From the IMG/VR virus record IMGVR_UViG_3300022074_000438, positions 1 through 21,528 of that record: a stretch of DNA of 21,528 bases; one strand, written 5' to 3'. The notes beneath the pieces are model-generated. The model was not told the origin of the DNA, did no database searches, and saw only the letters and a program-made list of their open reading frames with translations. This DNA is from a virus. A program made the translations under genes and the position numbers. Positions 2,542 through 21,528 of the stretch are shown in pieces (positions within the stretch are counted from its first letter, which is position 1; each line of letters starts with the position of its first letter).

Positions 2542-4070
2542 ACCTGATAGCTCCTTAACCCATCAATTGGTGAAACAATGTAAAGATTTTCTTTGGCGCG
2601 GGTGACAGCCACATAAAACAATCTGTGTAAATCGTCCATCATTCTCTGCCCCTCAAGCGTGTTTGATGAAACCGCTTGGTCAGAAGCATATGATATATCG
2701 GTATATAAAACAACATTCGTTGCTTCTCCGCCTTTTGTACCGTGTATTGTGGATACCTTGATCCGTGGTTCGCGGTTCAAGTCTTCTCCTTTTCGAAGCA
2801 GCGCCGCAATATATGTTTTAAGGTCTTCTGGAATTTTATCCATGGCTCCGCCCCACGACATATCTTTAGTAGCGAGCAATCCAAAGTTGTTTTGTAGGGT
2901 TTCAAGATTAAACAGGTCGTTAGTTTCTATGCCAGATAAATTTTTAAAGCCACGTTTAATGCGGGTGCCGGATTTCATGTAGTAATACATGTTGCGGGCG
3001 GAGTTGGCATCCACTTCATCACCAGCTATGAGCGCTTCCCATGCGCTAAGTGCGCTTGCAAGCTTTTCGCTTATGCTACGGTTGCCGCGGTTTTCAAAGT
3101 AGTAACCATACTGCTTCATCTCCTCACAGATTTCATTCAGCATGTAGTTACATTGCGCTAACACCAGCCAATCCCCCTCCGCAAACTTATGCATGTCGGG
3201 CTGAAATACATTCTCCACTTTCCCTATGTCAGGCTTTGGCTTGTAATCTTTAGGTCTGCGAGTTTTTATTCTTGCGGCAATTCTATGTGCTATTTGGTGC
3301 ACCTTCTGTGGTATTCGGTAGGATTGAGAAAGCACCTCTGAGCCCTCTTCTACGCCCAAGAAGTGCTCTACATCTGCACCCGCCCAGCGGTAAATGGCTT
3401 GGTCATCGTCCCCCGCGGCGTACATACGGGTGGCATTCTCATTTAGTATATGTGCAATTTCCCACTGCAACGGGGATAAATCCTGCGCCTCATCTAAGAA
3501 GACAAGGGAAAACTTCGGGCAGACCCGTGATCCGTGTTCCGTGAACCATTCTAAGATGTCTGTGTAATCATAAAGTCGATTAGCTTTTTTATATTTACGG
3601 TAGGCTTCATCTATATACACAACCGTGGACAGCGGCTCTTCTACTGAGCTTTCTTTATAGGTTACTTCTATGCGTTCTTTTTTAAGCCTAGCAAGCTGTA
3701 TAAGTTGCATGAGCGGATTATCACGGGCGTTGGAGCCTATGTCTTCATCGTCGTTATTTGCTTTTGCGGATAGGTTAAAGCCTATTTGCAAACTCAATTC
3801 GTGCAGGTGCTCTGTGCCTAAAAGCTGGTCCCGCTGTATATCTGACAGGTTAAAGCAAAAGCTGTGTAGCGTTCTAAAGAAGTTCAGGTCTTTTTCTACG
3901 TCCAGATTAAAACGTCTAGCCGCACGTTCTTTGGCCTCGCTAGCGGCTTTGCGGGTAAAGGCAAGGAAGGCAATATTAGAAGGGGATATACCCTCATCAA
4001 TTGCTTTCTCTACCATGTTCAAGAGTGTAGTGGTTTTACCTGTACCCGGTGGGCCGTATATAACAAACAT
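2538..4070 (-). CDS. superfamily 1A (UvrD/Rep-like) DNA helicase
   Basis: ATP-driven 3'-5' type helicase of 510 residues, probably acting at the phage replication fork. Motif I is GPPGTGKTT (6-14), Ia AFLAFTRKAASEA (34-46), II FLDEAQD (191-197), III GDDDQAIYRWAGAD (220-233), IV SQSYRIPQ (248-255), V TIHGTKGGEA (441-450) and VI FYVAVTRAKENLYIV (485-499). All catalytic motifs are intact. The Walker A motif begins at residue 6, so the Q motif that normally precedes it in UvrD/Rep is absent. The frame is closed by an in-frame TGA about 16 bases before the ATG, so no longer start exists. The ATG overlaps the primase stop (TAATG). The order primase, helicase, polymerase supports a replisome role; repair or recombination is the alternative. 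The gene carries two clear heptad DNA repeats. Confidence 0.94.
   Translation of the reverse strand: MFVIYGPPGTGKTTTLLNMVEKAIDEGISPSNIAFLAFTRKAASEAKERAARRFNLDVEKDLNFFRTLHSFCFNLSDIQRDQLLGTEHLHELSLQIGFNLSAKANNDDEDIGSNARDNPLMQLIQLARLKKERIEVTYKESSVEEPLSTVVYIDEAYRKYKKANRLYDYTDILEWFTEHGSRVCPKFSLVFLDEAQDLSPLQWEIAHILNENATRMYAAGDDDQAIYRWAGADVEHFLGVEEGSEVLSQSYRIPQKVHQIAHRIAARIKTRRPKDYKPKPDIGKVENVFQPDMHKFAEGDWLVLAQCNYMLNEICEEMKQYGYYFENRGNRSISEKLASALSAWEALIAGDEVDANSARNMYYYMKSGTRIKRGFKNLSGIETNDLFNLETLQNNFGLLATKDMSWGGAMDKIPEDLKTYIAALLRKGEDLNREPRIKVSTIHGTKGGEATNVVLYTDISYASDQAVSSNTLEGQRMMDDLHRLFYVAVTRAKENLYIVSPIDGLRSYQV
2761..2781. repeat. heptad DNA repeat inside the helicase gene
   Basis: Three consecutive seven-base units, ATCCGTG, GTTCGCG and GTTCAAG; the first two fit the NNYCGYG pattern seen at many places in this window. 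The flanking CTTGA and TCAAG make the 25-base block (2757-2781) an imperfect palindrome. Seven is not a multiple of three, so codon periodicity does not explain the spacing. Confidence 0.5.
3523..3543. repeat. three tandem NYCCGTG heptads in the helicase gene
   Basis: Three directly adjacent units (3523-3529, 3530-3536, 3537-3543) share CCGTG at positions 3-7 and differ only in the first two bases. This is the cleanest example of the heptad pattern. On the coding strand it falls within the HGSRV segment between motifs Ia and II, a poorly conserved part of the protein. Confidence 0.65.
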
Positions 4071-5611
4071 TAGAAGGGTATCTCCTCATCGTTTGCTCCG
4101 AACTCTGGAGTTCGTACCGCTTCTACCGACTTATCATAAGCGGGTATTGACCAAACTCTTACCACCCTGTCTTTAATTCTTAACGACGTTGAATCCCCGT
4201 TAATGTCTCTTAGACGCTGAGAAATCATGTGCGTTTTAAATTCAAAGAAGCGCTGACGCTTTAGATAGTTCTCAAAGTCTCTTAACCGGAAATAGGTTAA
4301 GCTGGCTTCTTCATCTGTCCACGGGCGCCGCAGAAGTATTTCTTCTTTATCAGAAGCTGTCTGCATATTACGGCAGAAGTCTTCTAAGTAATCATAAAAG
4401 GCGCCGTCCACAGAAGCATCCTCACTGGCCTCCATGATACCCCCTTCTGTCTCCGTCATATCACGGAGCAGGGCCGCAACCCTGTTTTCCCAGACAGGCT
4501 TACTTGCTGTGGGCGGCATTACGTTCAACTGCTCTATGCAGGCTCTTTGAAAGGAAGCTTGGCTTTGTAGACCTTCAGTAGAAAGCTCTAGCGGTTCGCC
4601 ATTAACATCCATAAACCAGATAGGCGGCTTTGAATTATATTTACGCAGGTTAGCAACCGTAGCTGACTGGCCTACATTACCTACACCGAAACGCCGTGTC
4701 AGGCACTTCTCTTTGTCGCAATGGTCGTTGATAGGAGCATCGCTACACTTGTAGGTATAGTCTTTTCGGTTAAGCTGTTTAACAAGCACGTTTACTTCCG
4801 CCAATGGCAGCGGCGGCTCAAAGTGAGCCATGTTGTACTGCATTAGCTTATCTTCCCAATCGTCAGGGTGCGCTTTACGAAGATACACCCCTATGTTGAA
4901 CAGGCCATTATTGCGTGTGCCTTCGGGAAATCCTTGAGTACAAAGATACTGCAAGCATGGCGGACCGTCCTTTATGGGGTTTTCGTCACTCTTCTCTATT
5001 GTAAGAGCTTCCACCTGCTCAGTCGTTTGTACATTCTCCGTATACAGTTCAATAAATTCTTCTAAGGTTGCCGCTGTCCCATCGGCTTTGAAGGCGTAGC
5101 GTAAACTCTCCTCATGGTTATAGTAGGGTAGGTTAAGGAAGTTTCCCACATCCCCCCGGTCGAGGTGTAAACGAATCTGTTTCGGGAAAATCTCACATCC
5201 AGAATAACCCAACGCCGCCGAAATAGAGGACAGCGTATCTTGTAGAAGTTTTGCTTCCACCCAATCTGAAGTAAAAAGAAAAACATGAGCCCCTCCAGAT
5301 TTAGAACGACAAACTATAAGCGGAAGTTTCATCTCCGCAATCTTGTCGATTAATTCTTTGTGGTTAAAACCCGTGTATTGATCAATATCAATACAACCCC
5401 ATCTACACTGGTTATTAGCGTTGATAGGTATAATTCCAATTGCGGGGCCAGAACCGGATAAGTGCATCTCCCACGTTTCCGTGGTCCGGGGCTGGCGTAT
5501 AACGCTGGCCTGCCCGGCTTGCTTCCCATTGGCCTGCTGTTTTCTGATCTCGTAAGTACCATACGCCTCTTCGAGTCCAGAAAAGATATCTGAAAACTTT
5601 TCTACTGACAT
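4070..5611 (-). CDS. archaeo-eukaryotic-type (AEP) primase with Cys-rich C-terminal domain
   Basis: Makes primers for phage DNA synthesis; 513 residues. The N-terminal part resembles AEP primases of the type also found in TOTE conflict systems. The metal-binding acidic pair is WGCIDID (D75, D77), the nucleotide-binding SKSGGAH motif follows at 103-109, and GNFLNLPYY at 156-164. The middle holds PPCLQYLC (217-224) with EGTRNN (230-235), then a Cys cluster C289, C298, C303. C219 plus these three could form a zinc or iron-sulfur site, as in PriL-like or PriCT domains (inference). The extreme C-terminus is NDEEIPF, like an SSB tip. The ATG has GAGG six bases upstream and follows a hairpin that separates it from the SSB-like gene. 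It is coupled to the helicase by TAATG. A primase-polymerase role is possible. Confidence 0.88.
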   Translation of the reverse strand: MSVEKFSDIFSGLEEAYGTYEIRKQQANGKQAGQASVIRQPRTTETWEMHLSGSGPAIGIIPINANNQCRWGCIDIDQYTGFNHKELIDKIAEMKLPLIVCRSKSGGAHVFLFTSDWVEAKLLQDTLSSISAALGYSGCEIFPKQIRLHLDRGDVGNFLNLPYYNHEESLRYAFKADGTAATLEEFIELYTENVQTTEQVEALTIEKSDENPIKDGPPCLQYLCTQGFPEGTRNNGLFNIGVYLRKAHPDDWEDKLMQYNMAHFEPPLPLAEVNVLVKQLNRKDYTYKCSDAPINDHCDKEKCLTRRFGVGNVGQSATVANLRKYNSKPPIWFMDVNGEPLELSTEGLQSQASFQRACIEQLNVMPPTASKPVWENRVAALLRDMTETEGGIMEASEDASVDGAFYDYLEDFCRNMQTASDKEEILLRRPWTDEEASLTYFRLRDFENYLKRQRFFEFKTHMISQRLRDINGDSTSLRIKDRVVRVWSIPAYDKSVEAVRTPEFGANDEEIPF

Positions 5612-5627
5612 GTTGGTTCCTCAAACG

Positions 5628-5654
5628 GGGGTGCAACTAAATAAGTTACACCCC
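5628..5654 (-). promoter_or_regulatory. intergenic RNA hairpin between SSB-like and primase genes
   Basis: In minus-strand RNA, GGGGUGUAACU pairs with AGUUGCACCCC through 11 pairs (one U-G wobble) around a five-base UAUUU loop. It begins seven bases after the SSB-like stop and ends a few bases before the GAGG ribosome site of the primase. Only a short CGUUUG follows, so it is not a normal intrinsic terminator. It more likely stabilises the 3' end of the SSB mRNA, serves as a processing site, or tunes primase expression. Confidence 0.65.
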
Positions 5655-5661
5655 TTTGAAG

Positions 5662-6447
5662 TTAAAATGGGATGTCGTCGTCAGGAGCTTGATTAGAGCC
5701 CTCTTGCTGGTGCTTAACCTTAACTTCTCCCTTTTCAATAGAAGCGTTAAAAGTTTTAGCCGCGTTGTACATGCCCGCATCTGTAATAGGGCTATCCAAG
5801 CTCATCTCCCAACCATGCCAACTGCCTTTGGAGTTTTCTTCTGAGACACTCCGAAGGTTGTATATGTGGCTAAACATAGGCGGCGTAAACGGTCCGTTGG
5901 CACCCTGCATTTCCCGCGATAGAATCATAGACATCCACTTACGAGATTTCTTTAACTGCGTAGACTTCATAGCAATCAAAGCATTTGTAGTGCCGCCATT
6001 CTCGTCAACCACTTTCACATACCACTGCGCGGTTTGCTCAATGTAATCACCAGAACCGTCTAACAAATATTCTTTGTTATCGTTGGCATCCCGCTCTGTC
6101 TTTGGAATATCGTCAGAAGGGTCGTAAATAGCAGAAGGGGCGCCCGTGCCCGAACCGCGTGGAGACCACTGAATGAATTTACGCTGGTAGACGCAAGGTA
6201 TAACTTTAATACCCTCTTTGCCTTTAAACGCTTCCCCGGTGACGGTGTTTAGAATATCGCCTTTACGGATATCTTCACGCTCATCCAAGATGGGGTCCAA
6301 GCCTGACACGATTTTTAAAAACGGTAGGGCCATATCTTCGTTAGAAATGTTACCCAAACCACCACTGGCATCTGCCTCAAACATTGAGGGGTCAAATGCT
6401 GCAACCGCAGTGTTTTCTTTCACCGCCACTTCTTTTTTCTCAGCCAT
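5662..6447 (-). CDS. SSB-like phage protein with DDDIPF C-terminal tip
   Basis: A 261-residue protein of a type I recall as common in marine phages next to replication genes. The last six residues, DDDIPF (256-261), are identical to the acidic tip of E. coli SSB, which binds partner proteins and is mimicked by phage ssDNA-binding proteins. A linker rich in Q, E, N and P (about 246-255) precedes it, as in SSB. The body contains conserved-looking blocks VIPCVYQRKFIQWSPRG (82-98), MKSTQLKKSRKW (160-171, basic) and GPFTPPMFSHIYNLRS (185-200). I cannot assign an OB fold by eye, so ssDNA binding is inference from tail and context. It is coupled to the upstream 192-residue gene by TAATG and lies just before the primase. 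A recombination-mediator role is an alternative. Confidence 0.65.
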   Translation of the reverse strand: MAEKKEVAVKENTAVAAFDPSMFEADASGGLGNISNEDMALPFLKIVSGLDPILDEREDIRKGDILNTVTGEAFKGKEGIKVIPCVYQRKFIQWSPRGSGTGAPSAIYDPSDDIPKTERDANDNKEYLLDGSGDYIEQTAQWYVKVVDENGGTTNALIAMKSTQLKKSRKWMSMILSREMQGANGPFTPPMFSHIYNLRSVSEENSKGSWHGWEMSLDSPITDAGMYNAAKTFNASIEKGEVKVKHQQEGSNQAPDDDIPF

Positions 6448-7025
6448 TATTTTGCTCCTTTTATTTCTGCACGTTGGCCTACATAAGCCCCAAACAATTC
6501 CATGGGGAAATCGTTACCCGCTTCAACTTGTTCCTTTACCCAAGCACGAAGCTTTGAAGGGTGAATAGATTCTTTTTGGTCTGGTATTAAGCCCATTTGT
6601 TCCGCCTTTTCAGAGAAATCTTGAGCTTTCTCGTCTTCCCCCATCCCAAAAGAAACCGCCACCACATTTTTGATAGCGTCACCATGCCCATTATCCCTCA
6701 TCCACTGATGGGCTTCGTCAATTTTATCCTTCGGTATAGATGCACCATATAAAGGTTTGACGTTGACACTAGACCCGTCAGCAAGCTTAAAAGATGAAAC
6801 GCCCATTTCGGTTAACATTAAAGGCAAATCTTCTTCAGTCATTTTCCGAAGATCTTTCTTCAAGTTTCCCAAGCGCTCTTCAGCTTGTTTCACTTCATTT
6901 TCTTTATTTGAGATATCTTGAGCCAATCTTGCGACGCCTTTAAGATGCTTGTCGTCAAAATTACCAAGGGGGGAGGGTGGTTTGGACTTAACGTCCGATT
7001 CAATAAGTGATGTTAAATCATTCAT
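6447..7025 (-). CDS. coiled-coil protein of unknown function, first gene of the replication operon
   Basis: A 192-residue soluble protein I do not recognise with certainty. Residues about 33-66 (RLAQDISNKENEVKQAEERL onwards) form a strongly charged heptad-like coiled coil. A compact middle follows (75-125, with FKLADGSSVNVKPLYGASIP), then a helical C-terminal part ending in LRAWVKEQVEAG and a basic tail. Proteins of this shape sit next to the SSB-like gene in marine phages, which suggests a replication or recombination accessory role, but this is context only. The ATG at 7025 has only a weak AAAGG about ten bases upstream, inside a leader carrying a triple TTTCG repeat, so its translation may be controlled. 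Its stop overlaps the SSB-like start (TAATG). Confidence 0.8.
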   Translation of the reverse strand: MNDLTSLIESDVKSKPPSPLGNFDDKHLKGVARLAQDISNKENEVKQAEERLGNLKKDLRKMTEEDLPLMLTEMGVSSFKLADGSSVNVKPLYGASIPKDKIDEAHQWMRDNGHGDAIKNVVAVSFGMGEDEKAQDFSEKAEQMGLIPDQKESIHPSKLRAWVKEQVEAGNDFPMELFGAYVGQRAEIKGAK

Positions 7026-7037
7026 ATGTTAATCGCC

Positions 7038-7058
7038 TTTCGTCTTTCGCGTTTCGTC
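7038..7058. repeat. three seven-base TTTCG repeats in the replication-operon leader
   Basis: TTTCG occurs at 7038, 7045 and 7052, exactly seven bases apart. On the minus-strand transcript this is a triple CGAAA whose last copy runs into the weak ribosome site of the 192-residue gene. It could be a protein-binding site on the leader RNA. It also fits the NTTCGYG branch of the heptad repeats found elsewhere. Confidence 0.55.
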
Positions 7059-7071
7059 ATTAAAATGTCTT

Positions 7072-7108
7072 TTGGACACTTGATATATCTTATATACTGA
7101 TATATGTT
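7072..7108 (+). promoter_or_regulatory. candidate promoter for the SNF2/zinc-ribbon unit
   Basis: Two sigma-70-like combinations exist on the plus strand: TTGATA (7080-7085) with TATGTT (7103-7108) at 17-base spacing, and TTGGAC (7072-7077) with TATACT (7093-7098) at a short 15-base spacing. Either would start transcription at about 7105-7115, only 20-30 bases before the SNF2 ATG. The direct repeat TGATATAT (7081-7088 and 7098-7105) lies within and may be an operator. Confidence 0.5.
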
Positions 7109-7119
7109 TATATAGTCAA
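7091..7119 (-). promoter_or_regulatory. candidate promoter for the replication operon
   Basis: On the minus strand TTGACT (complement of 7114-7119, five of six to consensus) lies 17 bases from TATATA (7091-7096), with TATAAG as an alternative -10 two bases further on. Transcription would start near 7084, giving a leader of about 59 bases to the ATG at 7025. It occupies the same DNA as the plus-strand promoter, pointing the opposite way. Confidence 0.6.
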
Positions 7120-7133
7120 GGAGAAACCGCAAA

Positions 7134-8597
7134 ATGTCAAACAATTATAATTATACTTTTAAAACAGAGCCTTATGCCCACCAAGAAACTGTGTTTCGTG
7201 ATTCGCGGGACGAGAGAATGTATGCATTGTTTATGGAAATGGGCACGGGTAAATCTAAAATCGCAGTGGACACCATGGGTTCATTGTATGAAGAAGGTAA
7301 AATAGACACCGCTCTTATTGTAGCGCCTAAAGGTGTTTTTCATAACTGGACAAACAAAGAAATACCCGCGCATTTGCCTGAGAGAATTAATCACCATATT
7401 TTGCCGTGGCAACCCAACATCACTCAGAAGTTCAAGCAGGCGTTTGTAGATTTATGTAACACTAAATCTTTAAAAATCTTTGTAATGAATATCGAATCGT
7501 TCAGTACATCCAAAGGAGCAGAGACAGCTTTATGGTTTGCGAAACAGTATGGTTTAAGGGGCTTGATGATAGTAGATGAATCTACCGCTATTAAAAACCG
7601 TAAAGCCAATCGAACCAAAGCTATCATTGCGGCGGGGGAACATTTTGCATATAAGCGTCTCCTGACAGGCTCCCCCGTCACTAAATCCCCTATGGATTTG
7701 TATTCTCAATGTGAGTTTTTAGACAAAAGGCTGTTGGGTTTTACCAGCTATTATGCGTTTCAAGGCAGGTATGCTGTTGTTCAAAAGCGTTCTATGGGGC
7801 ATAGGTCTTTTCAACAGATTGTGGGCTTTCAACGTCTAGACGAGCTTAACGGAAAGCTTGATTCGTTTAGCAGGCGCGTTCTTAAAAAAGATTGCTTAGA
7901 TCTTCCTGAAAAGGTTTATGTGCGTAGAGAGGTAGAACTCACCAAAGAACAAAAGACCTTATATACCCAGATGAGCAAACTAGCTTTAGCCCAATTAAAG
8001 GACGGATCTTTGTCAACCACGAACAATGTTTTGACACAGATTATGCGGCTACAGCAAATATGTTGCGGGTTTATCAAGAATGATGAAGAAGAAATATCTG
8101 AGGTGCCTTCAAACAGATTGCAAGAGCTTGTGAATGTTTGTGAAGAAACAGACGGTAAAGTTATTATTTGGGCCACATATGTTCACGATATTGAGCAGAT
8201 ATGTGAAATGCTTTCAAAAAACTATGGTCCTAAAAGTTTCGGATCTTTCTACGGTGCAACCCCGCAAGATGAGCGGCAAAACATTGTAGAGACATTCCAA
8301 GACCCGGAATCAGAAATGCGTTTTTTTGTGGGGAACTCACGTACAGGGGGTTTTGGTATTACACTTACTGCCGCCAATACTGTGGTGTACTACAGCAATA
8401 ATTATGACCTTGAAATACGCCTGCAATCGGAAGACCGGGCGCACCGTATCGGGCAGAAGAACAATGTAACTTATATTGATTTAGTAAGTCCTAAAACAAT
8501 AGATGAAAAGATATTGACCGCATTAGTTAATAAGCAGAACATAGCTAATACGGTTTTGGGTGAGGAGGTAAAAGAATGGTTCAACCCCCCAAAATAA
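7134..8597 (+). CDS. SNF2-family DNA helicase/translocase
   Basis: ATP-dependent double-strand DNA translocase of 487 residues, a compact phage member of the SNF2 group. Lobe 1 has Walker A MGTGKS (36-41), motif Ia LIVAPKGVFHNW (61-72), motif II VDEST (147-151) instead of DEAH, and motif III LTGSP (177-181). Lobe 2 has KVIIWATY (342-349), motif V GFGITLTAANTVVYYS (406-421) and motif VI QSEDRAHRIGQ (431-441). It has no extra targeting domain. The ATG at 7134 has AAGGAG ten bases upstream (7118-7123). With the zinc-ribbon gene it is the only plus-strand unit in the window and diverges from the replication operon. Roles in fork remodelling, recombination or displacing host DNA-bound proteins are plausible; the sequence does not decide. 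Confidence 0.95.
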   Translation: MSNNYNYTFKTEPYAHQETVFRDSRDERMYALFMEMGTGKSKIAVDTMGSLYEEGKIDTALIVAPKGVFHNWTNKEIPAHLPERINHHILPWQPNITQKFKQAFVDLCNTKSLKIFVMNIESFSTSKGAETALWFAKQYGLRGLMIVDESTAIKNRKANRTKAIIAAGEHFAYKRLLTGSPVTKSPMDLYSQCEFLDKRLLGFTSYYAFQGRYAVVQKRSMGHRSFQQIVGFQRLDELNGKLDSFSRRVLKKDCLDLPEKVYVRREVELTKEQKTLYTQMSKLALAQLKDGSLSTTNNVLTQIMRLQQICCGFIKNDEEEISEVPSNRLQELVNVCEETDGKVIIWATYVHDIEQICEMLSKNYGPKSFGSFYGATPQDERQNIVETFQDPESEMRFFVGNSRTGGFGITLTAANTVVYYSNNYDLEIRLQSEDRAHRIGQKNNVTYIDLVSPKTIDEKILTALVNKQNIANTVLGEEVKEWFNPPK

Positions 8598-8752
8598 AGG
8601 AAGACGGTCCTATCAAAAAAGCGCTTGATTCGGGCCGTTGTCCGCGGTGCTTGTGCAACATGGAGCCTGTCGATGTGCACGGTCATCAGCAATGCTCAGT
8701 ATGTAAGTTCTATATAGTTGAGTGCTGTAACGGGGAAACTAGCCGCGATTAA
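8576..8752 (+). CDS. 58-residue zinc-ribbon protein
   Basis: This small gene starts at the ATG at 8576 inside the 3' end of the SNF2 gene, in another frame, behind a perfect GAGGAGG ribosome site seven bases upstream. It encodes C22-P-R-C25 and C40-S-V-C43, the two knuckles of a zinc ribbon, with extra C27, C50 and C51 and a GHQQC segment. Small proteins with this layout recur in marine phages. They may bind nucleic acid or protein; no specific partner can be named. The 22-base overlap with SNF2 implies coupled expression and possibly a joint function. Its last 14 bases overlap the 3' end of the convergent 669-residue virion gene. Confidence 0.85.
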   Translation: MVQPPKIKEDGPIKKALDSGRCPRCLCNMEPVDVHGHQQCSVCKFYIVECCNGETSRD

Positions 8753-10748
8753 AGCTAATATCACTCAATCCTTGCTCTAGGGTGTTAATGCTAGAGCGGC
8801 CTTCTCTTTCTCTACGAGCTTTTTCTTCTTGAAATTCTCTGTTCTGCCTGCGGGCTTTTTCAGCTAAAGATTCGTCAGCTAATTTTTCCACGCCCCCGGC
8901 TTGTAGCGTATCTAGAAGAATCTCTCCAAAAGACTGTTTTCCAAAAAACTCAGAGGCGTCTATGTTAAATCCTTTCGCTCCGCCTGTTCGAGCATCGTAG
9001 CCCTGTACTTTAATTTCGGCAGTTTCTGGATCTACAAAAGTTTGAATAGGTTGGCTTTTGTCAAAGCCGCCAAAATTTCTTCCTACAAGATCGTTTAGCT
9101 CCTGACCTTCTCTACTATTCATAAGTCTTGCGCCTAAATCGGGGTTCTGCTCAAAAAAGTTTTCAAGAGAAGTGCTTGCGGCGGTTGCACCAACCGAATC
9201 AGCATTTCTTAAATCGGACGGTAAACCTGTTCCTTGGTACGAGGTATCTCTGCCGCGGTTTTGTTCTCTTAGAATTTCCGAAGGGGATAACTGCATGTCC
9301 ATAAGGTCTTGTGCAGTAGGCTCGATACCCATAGAGCGTAAGTCATCTGGGGTACGCGGCCCAAACATTCCATAACCCTCACCCGGAGTAGGCGCCATCT
9401 GATTACCCCGAGGATCAATAGTTGAACCTAATGCATCCATGTCAGGGCCAACTGGTGTGGCCCGTGACTCGCGGTAAGATGCTGCCGCATCCATGTCAGG
9501 GCCGTAGGGTTGAGGAGTAAACCCATCAATTTCTTCAGGAGTAGGACCTGTCACACCGTCTATTTCATAGTTACGAGAAATGGCGTCTAATTCTTCTGAA
9601 GGTAGGTCATACCTCCGTCCAATAGGGCCTTCTATATCTACGGATTGATAAGGGCCCATTGCTGCACCTTCGTTAGCCCGCGCTATTGCTATAGATTCAG
9701 GAACAGATGTAGGGGTAGGAATACGATTTTGCCTTTCTACCATATCATAGGAAACAGGATCCATGCCATAATTAGGAGCGTTTCTATTTGTTAGAGCATT
9801 TGTAGGGGCAGATAGTGCATCAATTTCTCTTGGGTCAAAACTAGGGGCCGGAGCGTTGCTTGGGCGAGTCGTAAACGCCGTACCCTGTACAACAGGGGCT
9901 GGGGTTTCCCTGCCGCTAATTAAACTTCTTATGCCGTCCCCCAAAGAGCGAGCTTTGCTGTCAAACTGTGCAGGGTCCACACCAGTAGCGCCTTGAAACA
10001 CCTGTCCTAAAAGTCCTTGCGGACCCCTGCCTCTCATTTCAGGGGTTACTGCGCTTGATAGATAAGGATCAGTAGTGTCTAAAAGACCTGTTCCCATGGG
10101 CATCAGCGCACGAGCAATTGCGTCAGGTATGCTCTGTTCTCGAACAACTTCCTCTAAAGGGCCTAAGTAAGAGCCTCTATCCGTCCTGCCGCCGCGGGTA
10201 ATCTTTCCAGCGTCCACCTCTGCTTGTGTCGCACTTCTTTGATCTGGGTCAAAGCCGTCTACATCGGGTAAATTAAAAGGGTTTCTATAAGCGTCATACT
10301 GCTGTTGCATAATGCGTTCAGCAACGGCGCCCGGAGCATTGTATGTTGCCGCGTCAACGCCCCCCAAAAGTTTTCCGGTAGCGTCTCTCTTAATCTTTCC
10401 CCCTTTAAATACAGTTCCAGTTCTGGGAAGATTAGACAATTGCCTAGTGTAGTCTGGCTTAGCACCAAACTTACTCATAAAATTTGTAAAACCTGTTTGA
10501 CCAAAAGGATTAGTAGAACTCATGCCAAAACGAGTTTTAAATTGGTCGAAATTTAAGTCGCGACCATCGCTCATGCCACGGTTTACTTTGGTGGCATAAG
10601 TAGAATTAGAATCGTCATTATAAACAGAGGATGCATCATACCCTAATTGAGACGCGGCAGTGCCTTTGCTCGCCTGATATCCGGGAGTGTCCGCAACATA
10701 TCCTTGACCACCGACATCAAACGGATCGTATTCGTCTTCCATTGCCAT
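8739..10748 (-). CDS. large Gly/Pro/Asp-rich protein of unknown function, probably virion-associated
   Basis: 669 residues, not recognised. The N-terminal part (about 1-130) is polar and rich in G, Y, N and D (for example YDPFDVGGQGYVADTPGYQ). The centre (about 285-490) is Pro-rich and probably disordered, with two GPDMDA copies encoded by a 17-base direct repeat at 9433-9500. The C-terminus has a charged helix (about 620-655: EKARRQNREFQEEKARRERE). No signal peptide or membrane segment is evident. It is the last gene of the virion block, starting one base after the endolysin stop. There is an alternative ATG two codons in. It might be an internal virion, scaffold-like or host-contact protein; nothing in the sequence decides. 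Confidence 0.8.
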   Translation of the reverse strand: MAMEDEYDPFDVGGQGYVADTPGYQASKGTAASQLGYDASSVYNDDSNSTYATKVNRGMSDGRDLNFDQFKTRFGMSSTNPFGQTGFTNFMSKFGAKPDYTRQLSNLPRTGTVFKGGKIKRDATGKLLGGVDAATYNAPGAVAERIMQQQYDAYRNPFNLPDVDGFDPDQRSATQAEVDAGKITRGGRTDRGSYLGPLEEVVREQSIPDAIARALMPMGTGLLDTTDPYLSSAVTPEMRGRGPQGLLGQVFQGATGVDPAQFDSKARSLGDGIRSLISGRETPAPVVQGTAFTTRPSNAPAPSFDPREIDALSAPTNALTNRNAPNYGMDPVSYDMVERQNRIPTPTSVPESIAIARANEGAAMGPYQSVDIEGPIGRRYDLPSEELDAISRNYEIDGVTGPTPEEIDGFTPQPYGPDMDAAASYRESRATPVGPDMDALGSTIDPRGNQMAPTPGEGYGMFGPRTPDDLRSMGIEPTAQDLMDMQLSPSEILREQNRGRDTSYQGTGLPSDLRNADSVGATAASTSLENFFEQNPDLGARLMNSREGQELNDLVGRNFGGFDKSQPIQTFVDPETAEIKVQGYDARTGGAKGFNIDASEFFGKQSFGEILLDTLQAGGVEKLADESLAEKARRQNREFQEEKARREREGRSSINTLEQGLSDISFNRG

Positions 10749-10749
10749 C

Positions 10750-11268
10750 TTACACGTTCCTCATTTCTAACGCGGCTTCCAAAGTCTCTTTATTACGGCG
10801 GAGCCAGCCCTTACCAAATGTACCAAAAGTTTTTAAAGATTTATAGTATTCATCTCTTCTATTAGCCAAAGCCTGAATTAAAACAGCCGTGTCAGTAGCC
10901 CTTATCCGCTCCATGGTTCGTGGTCCGATAACCCCGTCCTCTGTAGCGCCAATCAAGCTCTGTAAATTCTTTGCGGCCCTAGACGGTCCGCTGTTCACGG
11001 CCCAATCAAATGTGGCAAAGTCTAGCCCTGACGGCATTTCATCAGCTAGCACCTTGTCCCAATACCCATGCTTATAGATAAGCTGTATATGCTCATCGGG
11101 TATATTCTTTAGCTCGTCCACATCTTCTAACGGGCGTCCTAAGAAATCAGCATAGGTTTTATGTGTGATACCTTTGTTGGTAGCACCGCCGGGGTCCTCT
11201 GGGTGGTCAACAAAACCACCTTCATGTTTAAGAACCATTTCAAGACTGAAAAAGAAATTTGCTTCCAT
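10750..11268 (-). CDS. GH108 N-acetylmuramidase endolysin with PG_binding_3 domain
   Basis: Cleaves the glycan strands of peptidoglycan, for lysis or for local wall opening during infection; 172 residues. The catalytic Glu is E16 in KHEGGF, followed by DPGGATNKGIT (25-35), the hallmark of glycoside hydrolase family 108. The C-terminal half (FDWAVNSGPSRAAKNLQ, then DGVIGPRT) matches the PG_binding_3 domain normally fused to this family, so it is full length. No signal peptide or anchor is visible, so it would need a holin or another route. No holin is recognised nearby. The start overlaps the stop of the 1226-residue gene (TAATG). Its position inside the virion block allows a virion-associated lysin as well as a classical endolysin. 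Confidence 0.93.
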   Translation of the reverse strand: MEANFFFSLEMVLKHEGGFVDHPEDPGGATNKGITHKTYADFLGRPLEDVDELKNIPDEHIQLIYKHGYWDKVLADEMPSGLDFATFDWAVNSGPSRAAKNLQSLIGATEDGVIGPRTMERIRATDTAVLIQALANRRDEYYKSLKTFGTFGKGWLRRNKETLEAALEMRNV

Positions 11269-14200
11269 TAACCTCTAGCCGCCATTAGTCCCATTATACC
11301 GTCGCCGGGAAATGCCGCCGCCATTCTAGAAGCGGTAGCCGGAGAAGAAGGTGCCTGCGCCAGCACGTTAGCCGAAGGGGCAGGGGCCGACGGCGGCGCA
11401 GGCGTAGGCGCCCGTGGAGGTTGGGGCGCCATGCTGACAGGTCCTAAAGCTCTGTCCCCCGCATTTAATTTGTACGGGCCTAATCCCGGTGGTCTTTGTG
11501 GCAAAGGAGTTTCTATTTCAACGTCTGGGCCCGGAGAAGTGTCATCTTCATCTGCCAGACCAAGCCCCGCATTTATAAGATATGCGTTTAAGAAACGGAC
11601 ATTGTTTTGAACCTCCGAAGATGTTTTACCTTTTTTCAAAAGCTTAACCATAAACTGTGGGTCAGTAACCGCAAGTTCTAGCATGTTTAACTGCATTCCT
11701 TGCGGTACTTTGCCCATCATATTCTTCATAAAGCGGACACCTGCCCCAGCCTCCACCAAGCCCTGTGACTTCATACCTGTTGCGGAAGCTACCCCAGTAC
11801 CAAAACGAGCACCCGCCAGCCGCATAAGTAAGTCCGCAGTAAAGCCCATTTCGTCGATCATTTCATCAGAAAGCTTGCCCGCTCTTTGTGCAGACTGTAT
11901 TTTCTGCCCTTGTTTCATAAGATATTCTAAACGGTCTAGTTCAGCTTTTGTGAAGACCCCTTCTCTTTCAAGAACGTCCGCAACAGAAACTCTTTGACGA
12001 GCACGATTGCCTAGCTCTTGTGCTTGATCCGTGGTCCGTGCAGTGCGCCCCGTGGCGGCAGTGGTCTTACCTTTAACCAAAGGCTTGAACATAGCTTCTT
12101 GGGCTGCGGCAAAATTAAACTTACCGCCTGTTCCACCCGCTCTTGTCCACATCCATTCAATCAAGCTGGACTTTAGGCCGTCCATAGCATCTTCAGGGCT
12201 TAAACCTTCGGCGTCTAAGTCATCAGCGAAGCGCGAATTTTTAGAGGCTTTTTTAACGGTATTAATTACAGACTGTAGGCTATCAACCGGGCGGGTGCTA
12301 CCAAGAGCCTCGGAAATAGCTACTGAAGGGCTTTCATACCGAAGGATTTTTGCTAAAACATTATTGCTCTTTACAGCTTTGTCATAACGCCCACGGTTCT
12401 TTTCCATGAGTTTAACCATGTTTTCAAACTGCTTGCCGTCTTTAAGCATGGCTTCAACTTCTGGGAAGTTGCGAAGCAAAACCTTGTTCTGTTCTAAGAA
12501 GGATGCCGCTTTACGCGCATCAATTCTGCCGGAAGCAGGGTCTAATACTTTAGCCGCGGCATACTGAACAGCTTGCGCCATGGCTGTATTTAAACTTTGC
12601 TGGTCTACCGGACCAAAATCCACATCATTTAATGGAACGCGCAATTCCTCTGCAACATTTAAACGGTCAAGCTCTTTTTGTACAAAGCTTGCTCCGTCCT
12701 GAATTTCTCTAAACCTAATGGCTGTCGCATCCGCGCCACCTTGAAACAAGGCTGAAGCTAAAAGAGTAGGTTCATATACATCGCCGCCATCTCTGTCGCG
12801 GGCCATAATATCTCCTAAGAAGGTACGGCGCAGTGCGTCGTTTTTGCCTCTTGAGAAAGCGCGAGCCAAGTCATATGCAGGATTCCCACCCTCTGCAACT
12901 GAATCTAGTTGCGTAAGGATAGCATTACCCAATTCACCCAAAGCTTTAGCACGGCCTCTATCGCCGTCTTTCATAGCTTTACGGGCTTCATCCAAAACTC
13001 GGCTACGAAGCTTAGTAAGTTCTTTTACTGAAATTTCACCAACTTCAGCTTCTTCAGGACCAATCCCTGCCTGTCTTTGCGCTTTTAACAGTTTTAATTC
13101 TGCGTTAGCTACACGTTCTGCGGCGTTAAGCTTTGCTTTCTCCCCGGCAGACAAAGATTTACCAAAATACTGCCTGCGAGCACGAATACCATCAATAACT
13201 CTTACGGGTTCGGTAAGAGCATAATCCATATCAACCGTGTCTACCTGACGGTTTTGAGTAAACATCCTGTTCTGTTCAGGGTTTTTAATAGTAGCTAATA
13301 CGTCCTGATAGTCTGCCACCGCGGCAGGGGGTAGGTTATTAATCGCGGTTTCCGCAGAAGCTACAGCTTTATTAGTTGTAGTGGGCGTATCGGTTAGTCC
13401 TAACTTTCCACGAAATAGGTTGATTTGACCTGCAATAGCCGGAGGGAAATCCTCTGTGTCCAAGAAGAATTTCTGCGAAATACCGTCTACATTATCGAAG
13501 AAACCGTCCATTGGAACGGTCAGGTCATTTGGAACTTCCGCCCATAAAAGACCTTCTTGCTCATCAGCGTTCTTAATGATTTGATCAAATTGTGTGCTAA
13601 GATTTAAGCCTATAGTGTCAAAGTCATCTTGACGCCCTAGACGATTGGCGGCGCCTACTGCGTTTGCATTTGCTTTAATTAAACTTTGCTCAATTAAATC
13701 TGAAATAGCGTCAGTGCGTAACTGTGTGGCAAAGCGAACTGATTCAGAATCCCCTTGTGCTATCAAAGCCGTGGCAAGCTGTTCTATAAACTCATAACCC
13801 TTTTCAGCACGAGCAAGGGCCTCTTGGTCAAGAACAGAGGTAACCCCCTTCTTTGCCACTTGGTTTTGCAAAAGGCTAAGAACAGGAGAACCTGTTATTT
13901 GAGCAGGCGTAAGTGGAGGAAGTTCAGCGTTAACCTGCAAGTCATCTAAAAACGATTGCATTTGTGCAGGGTTTTCTTCCAACTGCCGGATAATTGTATT
14001 TGGGTCCTCACCATATTTTTGTATGGTTTCAAACAACTTTTGACCTATACGAGTTTCTCTAGCCCCCGGCCCCACCTTTCCGGTAAGAGAATTAAAAAAC
14101 CGTGGAAGATTACGCATTATTGCAAGCCTCGGTTCAAACATACCGCCTGCAATTTCACCACCAAATCGCCCTGTTTCTCCTCCTCCTAGACTTTCCTGAC

Positions 14201-14948: not shown

Positions 14949-17369
14949 TTATTTCCCCGATAGAGAAGGTGCGTCTTGTGGGAGTACTCCGCCAGAACCG
15001 AAAGACCCCACTTGCCCTTGCAAGTTTCTTTGAAGAATTTCGTACTGACTGATTAAATAGTCCATCTCATCTATATCATCGCGTTTTTTAGCTTTGATTT
15101 GAACGGTTGGAGCATCTTCTCTTTGTGATTCAAGCTTGATTTTATTGTCTTTAAGAAAGGACAACATATTATCCACAGAGCTTTTTAATTTAGTCTTTGT
15201 TAGCCCCGCAGAGTAAGGGTCAATTTGAAGAGCTTCGATGCGGGCCCGCAGTCCTTCAGTGTCTTTACCACCAATGGCATTCAAGGCTCTAGTTACAGTT
15301 ATGGTATTCAAATACTGTAAGTCTCTCGCCCCTTCAAAAGAAGATGTATTAGTGGGCTCATAATCAGCACCCGTAACCAATGCAGAAAAGAAGTCCGCAA
15401 CATTTCCTATGCCCCGACCAAACTTTGCTCTAGGACCAATGCTCTCAGCGTAATTGATATTAGGATCAATAATACCTTCATAATCCGCAGGAGCGTCTGC
15501 CGCGTCTACAGCGTCTACTGAAAGTAGCCCCATGTCATTAAATTCAGGATTTAATTCTTTGGCACTACGAATCGCTTCTACCACAAACGGGGGAACAGTG
15601 CCGCCAGCGGTTACTAAACCTTCGCCCCCGGGGCCTGTTGTAATTCTTGGAGTATCCCGAACTACTGTGATAGCAGATTGGAACTGGCGAAGTTGTTTTG
15701 CGTCAGCAGTACCGTTAGATATTTCATCGGCTAAATCTACCAATAGGGCATTAGCAAATGAATTAGACATCCCTTTCAGTTCAGGCTTAGTGGTAAAGTG
15801 GAAACCTTCTTTTCTTGCTTTCAAAGCCTCAGAATCATTTTTAATAACCCTTGGCTGACCTTTTTCATTGAAAAGAGTAGCTGGGTCATTTTGTGTTGCA
15901 ACCACACTTGTTCCAAGAGGCGTGACAGATAATAACTGATTACCAAACACTTTAAGCTCTTCACTATATGGGCGGTAACCCTGTTCAATAAGATTATTTT
16001 GCTCAACCATGCTTTTAGCTGTTGAAACAATAGGCTTGCCGCCTTCAACCTTAACCATCCGTAAAAACTGAAAGTTTTCAGGAGTTTGAGGAGTAAACCC
16101 TTGCTGTACAAGAGCTTCCATATTTTCTGTCGTAGCCGTCCGTGCTTCTAAGCTACCATTTTCATCTCGGCGGTAAAGAACTTGCATGTCTGAAAGCTTC
16201 AATCTCGCAGGGTCAAACACAAAACCTTCGTTACGAATTTTTGTCTCTTCCTCTAAGGAGGAAGCTGTTTTAACAGTGCCCGCTTGGTTAGACAAAGACT
16301 TTGGAGCATACTTCGCTTCTTTGGAAGGCGGTAAGACAAACCCTGCCCTGCGGATAGAGGCCTCTTCTGTGGGAGAAGTAGCTGTTCTAACTTCTCCAGC
16401 TTGGTTAGATAAACTAACTGGCGAAAAGGCTTCCGGCTTGCTTGGCGGTAAGACAAACCCTTCATTCCTAATCCGATTCTCATCTTCAATTGTGAAAGCG
16501 GTTTGAAACTTTCCTGCGGTATTCATAAGGGTCACAGGCTTAAAGGTTTCACCTACACCCTGTGCAATAACCGGACGTTCGCCTGTCTCAGGGTCGGGTG
16601 CACCAAAAACTGTTTCGTAACGATTTACTTTAATAGGCTCTGCGGCTTTTGCTCGAGCGTCTCTAATACGTTTCTGTTCTGCTTGCGCTAATTCAAAAGC
16701 GCCTGCCCGTTCTGCGGCTTGTTGTGCACGTTTAGATTTAGACACATCCGCCGAAAGTTGAGCGGCATACGGTCCTATAGGCATTAAAGCCTCTGCCACG
16801 GGCGTACCCTGTGCAATAGCCAGACCTGCGGGCGCTAACCCCCCAAGCAATAGCTGACCAAGAGCCTGTTTTTGCATATCGGCTGTCTGGTCACCATAAA
16901 TTTCCTGCATCATAGGCAGGTTTTCTTCGTACAAACGCTTCAAGCTTACGGCACCGCCGGGTGCAAGCTGCAAAGGTTGCATAATGCCGCCAGCCATCTT
17001 GCCCTCTACAGGAACGTCCATAGCCTTTTGAGCCATTTGACCAATGCCCTCATCCACAGAACCCTGCGCTTCGCGCATCTGCATGACAGGCTGAACCAAA
17101 GTAACTACTGATTCGGGGGTCTTGTTAGCGTCTTTCATACCAACAATGCCGCCCAGTTCGTTGCGGCGCTCTTTCATAGTGCGCTCGTCACCACGCATGG
17201 CGTTCATCACACCCGCATAATCCTTGGCAGAAGCAATGCCCTTTTGAGCATCCGAAACAACCCGATTGCCTACTTCGCCTACAAAGTTTTCTGCCACCGC
17301 ATCACCCGCACCCTGCGCTTGGGGCATGGGCCGTGATCCGCGGAACATGCTTCTCTCATATACAGACAT
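14949..17369 (-). CDS. large virion protein with 39-residue tandem repeats
   Basis: 806 residues, not matched to a named family. The N-terminal 200 residues are helical and Met/Gln/Ala-rich, with a hydrophobic stretch (about 170-205) that could touch a membrane. Residues 276-392 are three exact 39-residue repeats of the form aromatic-x-P-x-x-L-x-N-x-A-G-x-x-x-T-A, then acidic residues, then GFV. Diverged copies continue to about 530, where each unit again ends in G followed by an aromatic residue. The C-terminal part (about 535-806) is non-repetitive with a final helical segment. The repeats look like small beta-beta-alpha units. Position and composition suggest an internal or ejection protein, or a tail-associated one. 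TAATG couples it to the upstream 272-residue gene. Confidence 0.75.
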   Translation of the reverse strand: MSVYERSMFRGSRPMPQAQGAGDAVAENFVGEVGNRVVSDAQKGIASAKDYAGVMNAMRGDERTMKERRNELGGIVGMKDANKTPESVVTLVQPVMQMREAQGSVDEGIGQMAQKAMDVPVEGKMAGGIMQPLQLAPGGAVSLKRLYEENLPMMQEIYGDQTADMQKQALGQLLLGGLAPAGLAIAQGTPVAEALMPIGPYAAQLSADVSKSKRAQQAAERAGAFELAQAEQKRIRDARAKAAEPIKVNRYETVFGAPDPETGERPVIAQGVGETFKPVTLMNTAGKFQTAFTIEDENRIRNEGFVLPPSKPEAFSPVSLSNQAGEVRTATSPTEEASIRRAGFVLPPSKEAKYAPKSLSNQAGTVKTASSLEEETKIRNEGFVFDPARLKLSDMQVLYRRDENGSLEARTATTENMEALVQQGFTPQTPENFQFLRMVKVEGGKPIVSTAKSMVEQNNLIEQGYRPYSEELKVFGNQLLSVTPLGTSVVATQNDPATLFNEKGQPRVIKNDSEALKARKEGFHFTTKPELKGMSNSFANALLVDLADEISNGTADAKQLRQFQSAITVVRDTPRITTGPGGEGLVTAGGTVPPFVVEAIRSAKELNPEFNDMGLLSVDAVDAADAPADYEGIIDPNINYAESIGPRAKFGRGIGNVADFFSALVTGADYEPTNTSSFEGARDLQYLNTITVTRALNAIGGKDTEGLRARIEALQIDPYSAGLTKTKLKSSVDNMLSFLKDNKIKLESQREDAPTVQIKAKKRDDIDEMDYLISQYEILQRNLQGQVGSFGSGGVLPQDAPSLSGK
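16194..16544 (-). repeat. three 117-base tandem repeats
   Basis: Three adjoining 117-base units (16428-16544, 16311-16427, 16194-16310) encode the 39-residue protein repeats. DNA identity remains visible: the 18-base string GGCGGTAAGACAAACCCT occurs at 16327-16344 and 16444-16461, exactly 117 bases apart. This points to fairly recent tandem duplication or ongoing homogenisation. Confidence 0.9.
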
Positions 17370-19317: not shown

Positions 19318-19544
19318 TATGTCACCTTCACAGTACCACTATCATTATACAGAGTCCCCGCTTCAAGTCCAGTAGCCGAAGTTGGCAAGTCTGTCAGCGT
19401 TAGCTTAGTTCCTCGCATCTCACCCGGGTTACGCTCTTGCTCAATAAAAGTTTGCAAAGAACGCACTAAATCCGCCATGTACTGCTGTGTATACTCTAGT
19501 GGAGGTTCAGGTAATCTTGGTGGAGCGACTTGATTACTAGACAT
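19317..19544 (-). CDS. small virion-block protein of unknown function
   Basis: 75 residues: a Pro-rich start (VAPPRLPEPPLEY), an amphipathic helix (QYMADLVRSLQTFIEQE) and a beta-type tail ending GLEAGTLYNDSGTVKVT. The tail resembles short phage structural proteins with a GxLYNDxGTVK ending. Its TAATG links at both ends show that it is translated with the stabilisation-type protein and the 376-residue protein. A head-tail or tail-assembly role is plausible, but nothing specific can be said. Confidence 0.75.
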   Translation of the reverse strand: MSSNQVAPPRLPEPPLEYTQQYMADLVRSLQTFIEQERNPGEMRGTKLTLTDLPTSATGLEAGTLYNDSGTVKVT

Positions 19545-21528
19545 TATCTTCTACCATCCTGACGCACATCCACACGAGGGCTACCTAATTTCCATTTTGA
19601 CCCCAATGCATTTGATTCTACACGAAGTGCGAAGGAACGTCCACGAATCCTTAAATCCAACCGCTCTGTAAATTCTTCCACCGGAGAGGTCTGCGTTCTA
19701 ATAGCAGACCCTGTAGCGGTGCTGTCAAAAGATTGACCGGGATTGTTTCTAGCCTTTAAGGTAAATGACGCCTGTGGAGAACTTAAATTAGTAGAACCGT
19801 CAAAGGTTAAATCAGGTATTAAACGGCGAATATATGCAAAGTTTTCACCTTCTCCAATGTCTATAACCGCAGATTCAATGAATGAATCCATAGCCGTGCC
19901 ATCGTCATCATATCCAAACTCGTGGTTATAAATATATCCGTCTCCTACAGCGAGAGGAAAGTTCCGTGTGCCGCGGTCTAACCATGCAGTTCTTTCAATC
20001 GTGCCGAAGTACCACACTTTTTCAGAGTAATTGTACGTTACATAGCGGTCATTGTCAGTAGCACCTGTGGACGGGTAGAACCAAGTTACTTCGCTAAACT
20101 CTGAGTTTACGCCAGCAACAACCTTTTCCCGCTCACTAAGGTTAAAATCTAGAAACACCTTATCCTTTACTGTACATGGTAAGGTTTGTGTCTGTCCTGC
20201 ATATACATAGAAGGTGTCAATGCCCATCCAGAACACAAAGTCTTCTGTTGATACAGCAGAGTTTGGGCTCATTATGGTTATGTTGCTAGATAACTGTTGA
20301 AGTCCAAAAGTGAAGGGGGGCCCTATGAACCGCATAGATGTAAGCGCAGTATCTGTCCATACCAGTATCTCACGCTTTGTTTCAACAGCCTGCACAAAAG
20401 TAGAACCCGCACCCAAGCGCAAATCGCCCGCGGTGTTGGTCGTTGTTGGATACCATTCTGTCGGGTTTTCTTGGTCAGAAAACCGAATTAATAGCGGGTC
20501 TTGTGTACCATCCCCGTCTGTTGCGCTAGAGCTTACATTAATACCATCCGAACCAAAGGCAATTACATGGCGGTCACGGTCAGAAACAAGTATTTGTTTA
20601 CACAAAGTTGGTACGCTGGTTTTTGTGCCAGCAATACTATTTAACTTTACAGCGCGAGTAGATAAATTATTCGTTCTGTCCCAATAGTAAATCTCATCAT
20701 CACGGGGGTTAACTAACAGGTCTTCACCAAAATTGTCATGCGACCATAGACGGATCTGAGTTGTTGTTGTCAGACCACCAGAAGCCGCTCTGCCCCAGCC
20801 GGAAAAATCATCAGCGGGATTGGCGTTGCCCAAAGCTAACTGAACCACCGAACCATCAGCGTGTGTGGTTGCAGTGGTGCCTGAATGTCCGCGTGTACAG
20901 CTTGTTAGATTGCTACCGGATATGCCGCCCACAAGAATAAGCTCTGTACCTATAAGCACAACGTCAGAAGCAACTATGCCTGTAGTGCTAGTTACTGTAA
21001 TGGTGGTGTCCACGGCTGTAAGTGTGCCGCCTTCGTTTACTGTGGTTTGTAGCGCACTGGTAGTAACACCATAATAAAGGCCCGCACCCCAACCTGTACC
21101 ACCAACCGTGGTGTTCAAGCCCACGTTGATTTGATATTCGCCCACGACACTCGAACCGCCATTACCTGTGTCTGATGCATTAGCCGTAACCGCGCTGGTA
21201 ATCTCATAAGTGTTGGCATCAACAACACGAGCAATTTGATACTCAATGTTAAGAACCGCCGCAGTGATTACCCCGCCCAAGCTCACCGCACCTGAGAAAG
21301 TAACAAAGTCAAACTGATTGGCACCGTGGCTGATATCTGTCACAGTAATTGTTGCAGAACCATTTACTGCGGTAAAGGTCACATCTCCTGCGGCAGTGGT
21401 AACGCGAATAGGGGTAATGTCATTAAGAGTACCCCCCTCTTCAATGTAGTATTTTAGGTGAGAGCCTATGCCAAGGTAGTTAGAACCATCTAATGCTATC
21501 CAGTTGTGCAGTGCACGGGCTGTGCCTA
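19544..21528 (-). CDS. stabilisation/tail-type structural protein (5' end beyond window)
   Basis: The frame is open to the window edge, so the gene is partial. The first in-frame start-like codon, a GTG at 21382, is not the true start: the upstream frame codes for convincing protein (ALHNWIALDGSNYLGIGSH, then DITPIRVTTAAG). At least 661 residues are present. The protein is beta-rich and Thr/Ser/Gly-rich, with an Ig-like feel near the N-terminus (VNGSATITVTDISHGANQFD) and a middle resembling phage packaged-DNA stabilisation proteins of the P22 gp10 type (WTDTALTSMRFIGPPFTFG, WMGIDTFYVYAGQ). The C-terminus, GSPRVDVRQDGRR, is a block common in marine-phage members. It probably sits at the head-tail connector or tail hub. 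It is the most upstream gene of the virion block seen here. Confidence 0.78.
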   Translation of the reverse strand, partial: GTARALHNWIALDGSNYLGIGSHLKYYIEEGGTLNDITPIRVTTAAGDVTFTAVNGSATITVTDISHGANQFDFVTFSGAVSLGGVITAAVLNIEYQIARVVDANTYEITSAVTANASDTGNGGSSVVGEYQINVGLNTTVGGTGWGAGLYYGVTTSALQTTVNEGGTLTAVDTTITVTSTTGIVASDVVLIGTELILVGGISGSNLTSCTRGHSGTTATTHADGSVVQLALGNANPADDFSGWGRAASGGLTTTTQIRLWSHDNFGEDLLVNPRDDEIYYWDRTNNLSTRAVKLNSIAGTKTSVPTLCKQILVSDRDRHVIAFGSDGINVSSSATDGDGTQDPLLIRFSDQENPTEWYPTTTNTAGDLRLGAGSTFVQAVETKREILVWTDTALTSMRFIGPPFTFGLQQLSSNITIMSPNSAVSTEDFVFWMGIDTFYVYAGQTQTLPCTVKDKVFLDFNLSEREKVVAGVNSEFSEVTWFYPSTGATDNDRYVTYNYSEKVWYFGTIERTAWLDRGTRNFPLAVGDGYIYNHEFGYDDDGTAMDSFIESAVIDIGEGENFAYIRRLIPDLTFDGSTNLSSPQASFTLKARNNPGQSFDSTATGSAIRTQTSPVEEFTERLDLRIRGRSFALRVESNALGSKWKLGSPRVDVRQDGRR

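Follow-up and report, generated by a model that had tools for sequence, protein, structure and literature searches.

The seven-base repeats (heptads) of the form NNYCGYG that are scattered through a 21,528-base stretch of the IMG/VR virus record IMGVR_UViG_3300022074_000438, the whole of which is referred to here as the window, are a selected, strand-polar motif. The conservation of their codons, their presence throughout a phage lineage, their polarity and a dense array beside the TerL gene of that lineage supported well the view that they form a sequence-specific recognition element. Overall, the heptads are a lineage-specific, strand-polar element whose core can switch; most likely they provide replication signals for a primase, and possibly signals for packaging. 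Pfam matches and translations placed the window in the replication-to-tail part of the phage. It lay wholly inside the reversed arm, where the dispersed opposite-strand sites are found, and the dense array was absent from it.

The pattern YCGYG-NN-YCGYG gave eight overlapping matches on the plus strand of the window and none on the minus strand. In synonymous codon shuffles that preserved the proteins (n = 1000), the mean was 0.40 on the plus strand and 0.24 on the minus strand with a maximum of 4, while first- and third-order Markov sequences gave 0.12-0.19 matches, and the refuting outcome named in the initial annotation, equal abundance in codon-shuffled controls, did not occur. Enrichment was confined to an offset of 7 (8/0, against 0-2 at the other offsets from 5 to 21), and the motif's own words ranked top in an assumption-free count of tetramers at lag 7. 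The close relatives G007 and G001 each had seven plus-strand and no minus-strand matches (shuffle means 0.34/0.19 and 0.42/0.09, respectively), and G013 had 10/2 against 1.62/1.11. The excess was weaker in G010 (4/0 against 0.81/0.29, with a shuffle maximum of 3), and in G015 both strands were enriched (7/6 against 1.50/0.99), the coding sites there being without strand bias. Non-redundant sites from close relatives defined a full motif of about three heptads, TG-RN-YCGTG-RN-YCGYG-RN-YCGTG, in which the core YCGTG (YCGCG in about half of the second units) was followed by G in 45% or A in 29%.

The plus-strand bias whatever the gene direction, also noted initially, held for all eight matches, including the one at 7194 in the gene of an SNF2 helicase (7134..8597, PF00176), the sole plus-strand gene of the window. 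As this gene also bears a plus-strand site, the polarity depends on the strand of the DNA and is independent of gene direction, and an RNA-level element was ruled out on the same ground. About half of the coding sites in the window shared one antisense frame encoding [RH]-x-[PST]-R. A preference for this peptide was rejected as the cause, since the shuffles kept the peptides and the SNF2 site lies in another frame and on the other coding strand.

Selection on the motif was evident inside genes. When the amino acid was retained in a relative, its codon was also identical in 74% of cases inside the motif, as against 31% for these codons at other positions of the genes concerned (0 of 20,000 resamplings reached this difference), so that the motif withstood the comparison between related phages on which the initial annotation had made it depend. 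This test, together with the shuffles (weaker in G010 and G015), ruled out an artefact of protein sequence or codon usage. The coding sites were without indels in up to 77 aligned relatives, and therefore were not born of 7-bp slippage.

Three exact sites, all on the plus strand, lay in the gene of a UvrD-like helicase (2538..4070, minus strand, PF00580) and in the SNF2 gene. Three perfect heptads, ACCCGTG ATCCGTG TTCCGTG, at 3523..3543 in the helicase gene had the top score of the window (26.2), with codon conservation of 0.95 for TCA (baseline 0.23) and 0.86 for CGG (baseline 0.18). At 2754..2781 in the same gene (TACCTTGATCCGTGGTTCGCGGTTC, exact heptads from 2761), the CGC codon was identical in all 18 of the 18 relatives that keep Arg. 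In the SNF2 gene, close to its start, the site AACTGTG TTTCGTG ATTCGCG (7187..7207, exact from 7194) retained the Ser codon TCG in 38 of 40 relatives against a baseline of 0.32, with the adjoining residues varying. Exact plus-strand sites were also found in a 669-aa gene (TGGTGTG GCCCGTG ACTCGCG, 9453..9473, exact from 9460 and kept in the locus L009), in a 1226-aa gene (GTGCTTG ATCCGTG GTCCGTG, 12020..12040, exact from 12027), at the start of an 806-aa gene (GGCCGTG ATCCGCG, 17329..17342, all four codons retained in two aligned relatives) and in a 612-aa virion gene (TTCCGTG TGCCGCG, 19962..19975, kept in L097). The 669-aa gene also contained a direct repeat, CATCCATGTCAGGGCC, twice within 9436-9505, flanking the 9460 site.

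Of the 11 places listed initially, the seven starting at 2761, 3523, 7194, 9460, 12027, 17329 and 19962 fitted at least two adjacent NNYCGYG units exactly; at 12027-12054 this applied to the first two adjacent units and not to the remainder. Those at 1117, 5477 and 10916 held one perfect heptad each, the second unit being a near miss. They belong to a weak site (AACCAAGATCCGCGGTTCCTG, 1110..1130, plus strand, score 11.3) in polA, which encodes a family A DNA polymerase (414..2315, minus strand, PF00476) and served as lineage marker; to TTCCGTG GTCCGGG (5477..5490, plus strand) in the gene of an archaeo-eukaryotic primase (AEP/PrimPol; 4070..5611, minus strand, PF22548 AEP-TOTE); and to a weak site with GTTCGTG GTCCGAT (10909..10929, plus strand, score 11.6) in an endolysin-like gene. 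The conservation of the polA site is not independent of the protein, because the site encodes the conserved EPRI. At the homologous place of the 5477 site, other relatives had full heptads. In the remaining place, 7038-7058 (TTTCGTC TTTCGCG TTTCGTC), the middle unit fitted and the outer units did not; this sequence, from the intergenic region where the gp33-like and SNF2 genes diverge, is 7-bp periodic and lacks the lineage core. The reverse-orientation pair reported near 10983-11003 was recovered as a weaker three-heptad match on the minus strand (GGCCGTG AACAGCG GACCGTC, 10982..11002, score 13.9). A further weak site, GGCCGTT GTCCGCG (8633..8646, plus strand, score 11.0), matched the pattern with one mismatch downstream of the SNF2 gene. 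Sites of the window followed one another at approximately 0.8-2.6 kb, with a single gap of 5.3 kb. The other genes of the window encode Pam3 gp34-like and gp33-like (DUF7307) proteins (5662..7025, minus strand, PF23977 and PF23984), a DUF3310 protein, an endolysin-like protein, and ejection and virion proteins.

The heptads mark one large aquatic phage lineage, of the DSL-LC04/HTVC023P type, whose named phages nearest to the window are DSL-LC04, 023Pt_psg01 and the Pelagibacter phages HTVC023P and HTVC027P. Among relatives found through polA, the motif was mainly antisense to that gene (281 vs 60; distinct sites 169 vs 42). When 2.9 million viral contigs were scanned by DNA alone for runs of four YCGTG heptads in tandem, at least 120 matched; of the 120 listed, 59 carried at least one lineage-related protein, the relationship being convincing in about 50. 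Little can be concluded from raw counts of perfect arrays, as a reversed-pattern control also matched the viral collection, and only arrays with heterogeneous spacers discriminate: 12 arrays had three different spacers for the motif, compared to none for the reversed control. The heptad pattern can also be used as a lineage marker in metagenomes. Arrays of related sequence, hundreds of CCGTGATTCGTGTTTCGTGTCTCGTGATTCGTG arrays preceded by AAAAGG, were seen in Bryobacterales (G032, G037 and the loci L257, L294 and L318); their orientation was coherent across tens of kb within contigs and the reversed control pattern was absent. We read these as a separate phenomenon.

Many members of the lineage possess a dense array of up to 14 or more units a short distance upstream of TerL, usually on the same strand as that gene. 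The distance was 0.2-1.5 kb; in HTVC027P types the array lies between TerS and TerL, 3-4 kb upstream of the latter. Of the TerL loci whose upstream sequence was long enough (101, including loci selected by the motif), 44 had a three-heptad array within 1.5 kb; where loci were selected by TerL only, the density of heptads was maximal 200-600 bp upstream of the gene. Autocorrelation of 5-mers in the TerL leaders, made with no preset motif, peaked at 7, 14 and 21 bp. In seven genomes, among which G010 and G002 are close relatives, 77 sites outside the 1.5-kb TerL leader were on the strand opposite to TerL and 11 on the same strand, compared to one opposite and nine same-strand sites inside the leader. 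Sites in the portal region were likewise on the strand opposite to TerL, and a bidirectional leading-strand (ori-ter) polarity was dropped for this reason, a unidirectional fork from the array giving a better fit. The slope of the GC skew shifted near TerS/TerL, a shift confounded by gene strand.

The core of the heptad was not the same in all members. HTVC027P lacked YCGTG heptads and carried five NNGCTTG arrays with variable NN between TerS and TerL; relatives with the HTVC027P type of TerL also had NNGCTTG arrays, on the TerL strand. As HTVC027P and HTVC023P, the latter with YCGTG sites, infect the same Pelagibacter host strain, the reader of the heptads is probably encoded by the phage. 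Outside the arrays, weak GCTTG sites in five genomes numbered 11 on the opposite strand (about 5 expected) and none on the array strand, a polarity that is suggestive only. At L089 (16506-17737) and the homologous regions of G324-G329, the region between TerS and TerL contained the GCTTG arrays in two clusters separated by about 0.8-0.9 kb. Perfect 7-bp repeats of different sequence (CCGGCAC, CCAAGGC, TTCGATG) were seen upstream of TerL at L469, L474, L486 and L462, and their sequences hint at further core switches.

We tentatively favour, with somewhat less than even confidence, the reading that the heptads are recognition elements for the lineage's own AEP primase, the array being the origin and the dispersed copies priming the lagging strand. 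These three roles, which we infer, would work as follows. The dense TerL-side array would be the origin iteron at which the primase starts the leading strand. A primer made there would run away from TerL, towards TerS and polA, and the fork would pass TerS, polA, the helicase, the primase, SNF2 and the tail genes, from left to right through the window. The dispersed opposite-strand heptads, spaced by roughly 1-2 kb, would be fixed lagging-strand priming sites of the fork leaving the array; since the lagging template of this fork would be the strand with the dispersed sites, one rule (prime at YCGTG) would cover both polarities. The fuller proposal, that the lineage hard-codes its lagging-strand starts by AEP-read tandem heptads at synonymous sites, with an inverted array as origin and a 5-bp code that has changed among phages sharing a host, is more doubtful, though a serious candidate.

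Several properties of the window primase are consistent with such a role. Its profile matched the Marinitoga PrimPol (CAPP) at 2.5e-11 and PF22548 at 3e-12. In an AlphaFold 2 (AF2) model of moderate quality, residues 1-208 matched the fold of 7nqe with a Z of 19, and residues 402-492 gave a separate winged-helix-like match. Four helices were predicted at residues 218-282 with low to moderate confidence, at about the position where pRN1 and NrS-1 have a template-reading helix bundle. In the C-terminal domain, W-type and DSL primases, which go with the YCGTG core, have QRLRD as the putative recognition helix; three GCTTG-type primases were found, and their helix differed, a comparison confounded by descent. 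The primase of pRN1 reads GTG in template single-stranded DNA (PMC8076596), and that of phage NrS-1 reads GTGA/GTGG plus TTTGGTTA, for which a split into origin and restart sites has been proposed (PMC8718748). In the heptads, GTG or GCG forms the last three bases of the core, and the next base is G or A at three quarters of the sites; the GCTTG phages have TTG.

Other observations weigh against this assignment to the primase. Comparison of the helix bundle with that of pRN1 gave no significant match (E 0.05-0.3), which does not in itself exclude a bundle. HTVC023P has the YCGTG core, yet its primase shares only about 27% identity with that of the window and the alignment of the C-terminal helix is unclear. 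Single YCGTG words showed no strand bias beyond that of the tandem ones, and the capsid and tail-fibre halves hold few sites, though lagging-strand synthesis is needed there too. The array adjoins TerL and not the replication genes, G013 and G015 hold some same-strand sites, and dispersed GCTTG sites are few. The tandem 7-bp arrangement is also left unexplained; pRN1-type primases make a unit primer of 8 nt, a number that is suggestive only.

If the primase does read the heptads, the origin, the fork direction and the priming could be read directly from the sequence of HTVC023P-type pelagiphages, which have been counted among the most abundant phages of SAR11. HTVC023P and HTVC027P, with one host strain and two cores, provide a ready-made specificity swap. 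Fixed, strand-specific sites that are spread genome-wide and selected inside coding genes are in any case unusual, and we know of no replicon with genetically fixed Okazaki start sites.

The initial annotation had suggested recombination, packaging or DNA binding; a sequence-specific recognition element is the part that stood, and packaging remains a live rival, and the main one, unlikely as we judge it to be. The heptads would then be sites for TerS (helix-turn-helix, Terminase_2), the TerL-side array being pac and the dispersed copies secondary or decoy sites tolerated in the opposite orientation only. The arrays are indeed upstream of TerL, or between TerS and TerL in HTVC027P types, and the TerS of the lineage belongs to PF03592, which we take to be the family of the SPP1/SF6 TerS. 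The pac of SPP1 comprises three direct-repeat sets near the small terminase gene (PMC4737164), although the DNA-binding domain of SF6 TerS binds pac without sequence specificity (PMC4737164). The recognition helix of TerS was invariant in the GCTTG phages (ARQYASKL), unlike that in the YCGTG phages, but the latter share one core in spite of widely varying helices (HTR, HVK, SVK, SGI, GVM, RTK, KYW). Furthermore, packaging gives no reason to expect many conserved copies of opposite orientation within genes at a distance of 10-30 kb.

The heptads would be operators or partition sites if a repressor, or a protein of the ribbon-helix-helix or ParB-like type, polymerised on them in the way that omega (the ParB of pSM19035) does on WATCACW; we consider this improbable. 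Omega sites have the same 7-bp period, non-palindromic units, a need for contiguity and overlap with promoters (PMC9499535), but they are located in promoters and are not spread through genes on one strand, and no Pfam-recognised ribbon-helix-helix or ParB protein was present among the candidates scanned. Between polA and TerS, the locus L107 (2474-3352, minus strand) encodes a 292-aa protein that is ParB-like by eye alone (GRLLDGQNRLAA) and had no Pfam match.

Neutral 7-bp slippage, by which the arrays would be functionless minisatellites, is less probable still. Among the longer simple repeats of bacteria, heptanucleotides are the most frequent, and their excess has been ascribed to polymerase slippage (review in PMC4679880); perfect long arrays exist, as do the other 7-bp repeats in TerL leaders mentioned above. 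However, a 7-bp insertion would shift the reading frame of the coding sites, in which no indel was detected, NN varies between units while YCGTG is kept, and neither codon conservation nor genome-wide polarity is expected. Slippage is thus contradicted for the coding sites, while some of the TerL-leader arrays may have expanded by it.

A Chi- or KOPS-like directional signal for protection or recombination, serving a helicase-nuclease or translocase of phage or host, would account for the one-strand polarity and the location in genes, and the lineage encodes UvrD-like and SNF2 helicases, with a PD-(D/E)XK nuclease in addition in DSL-LC04. We regard it as very unlikely, as Chi and KOPS are single short words and not tandem, the three-heptad form was present in few sampled bacterial genomes, and the inverted dense array by TerL is unexplained. 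The host-like repeat remnant suggested initially was rejected, as a three-heptad match was found in only 8 of the 142 Alpha- and 9 of the 143 Gammaproteobacteria sampled (mostly simple repeats; the host of the window phage was not identified), the coding copies were without indels, and two phages of the same host carry different cores.

A literature search found nothing specific on heptads at phage terminase genes, and the searchable passages of the paper on HTVC023P-type genomes (PMC9599517) do not mention the repeat. The element invites comparison with several known systems. Heptanucleotide repeats of bacteria (TAACTGA in Beggiatoaceae, GGACCGG in Geobacter) are likewise 7-bp direct repeats scattered in the genome; their units are different, TAACTGA is mostly intergenic while the Geobacter set also occurs inside genes, and neither report describes strand polarity or codon conservation. 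The omega sites resemble the heptads in their contiguous units with degenerate flanks, and differ in sequence, in the ribbon-helix-helix protein that binds them and in their function in plasmid partition. The pac of SPP1/SF6 shares direct repeats near terminase genes and a Terminase_2 TerS, whereas SPP1 pac has a few boxes at one locus and lacks dispersed, polarised copies. Replication-origin iterons with a cognate initiator are represented by those of SaPI Rep and the ssi sites of RSF1010 RepB', and the folds of both proteins turned up among the structure matches of the window primase. The heptads share with iterons the tandem short direct repeats at one locus, an element-specific core switched between relatives and a winged-helix or primase reader, putative here; they differ in the array adjoining TerL and in the many opposite-strand copies in coding DNA. 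With pRN1 ORF904 and the NrS-1 PrimPol, the likeness lies in an AEP of a mobile element, a strand-specific site in single-stranded template DNA with GTG followed by A or G, and a proposed division into origin-type and general sites (PMC8718748, PMC8076596). The site there is a single short word, whereas the heptads form 2 to 14 or more tandem units that are genome-polar and conserved in genes, with a reader that is predicted.

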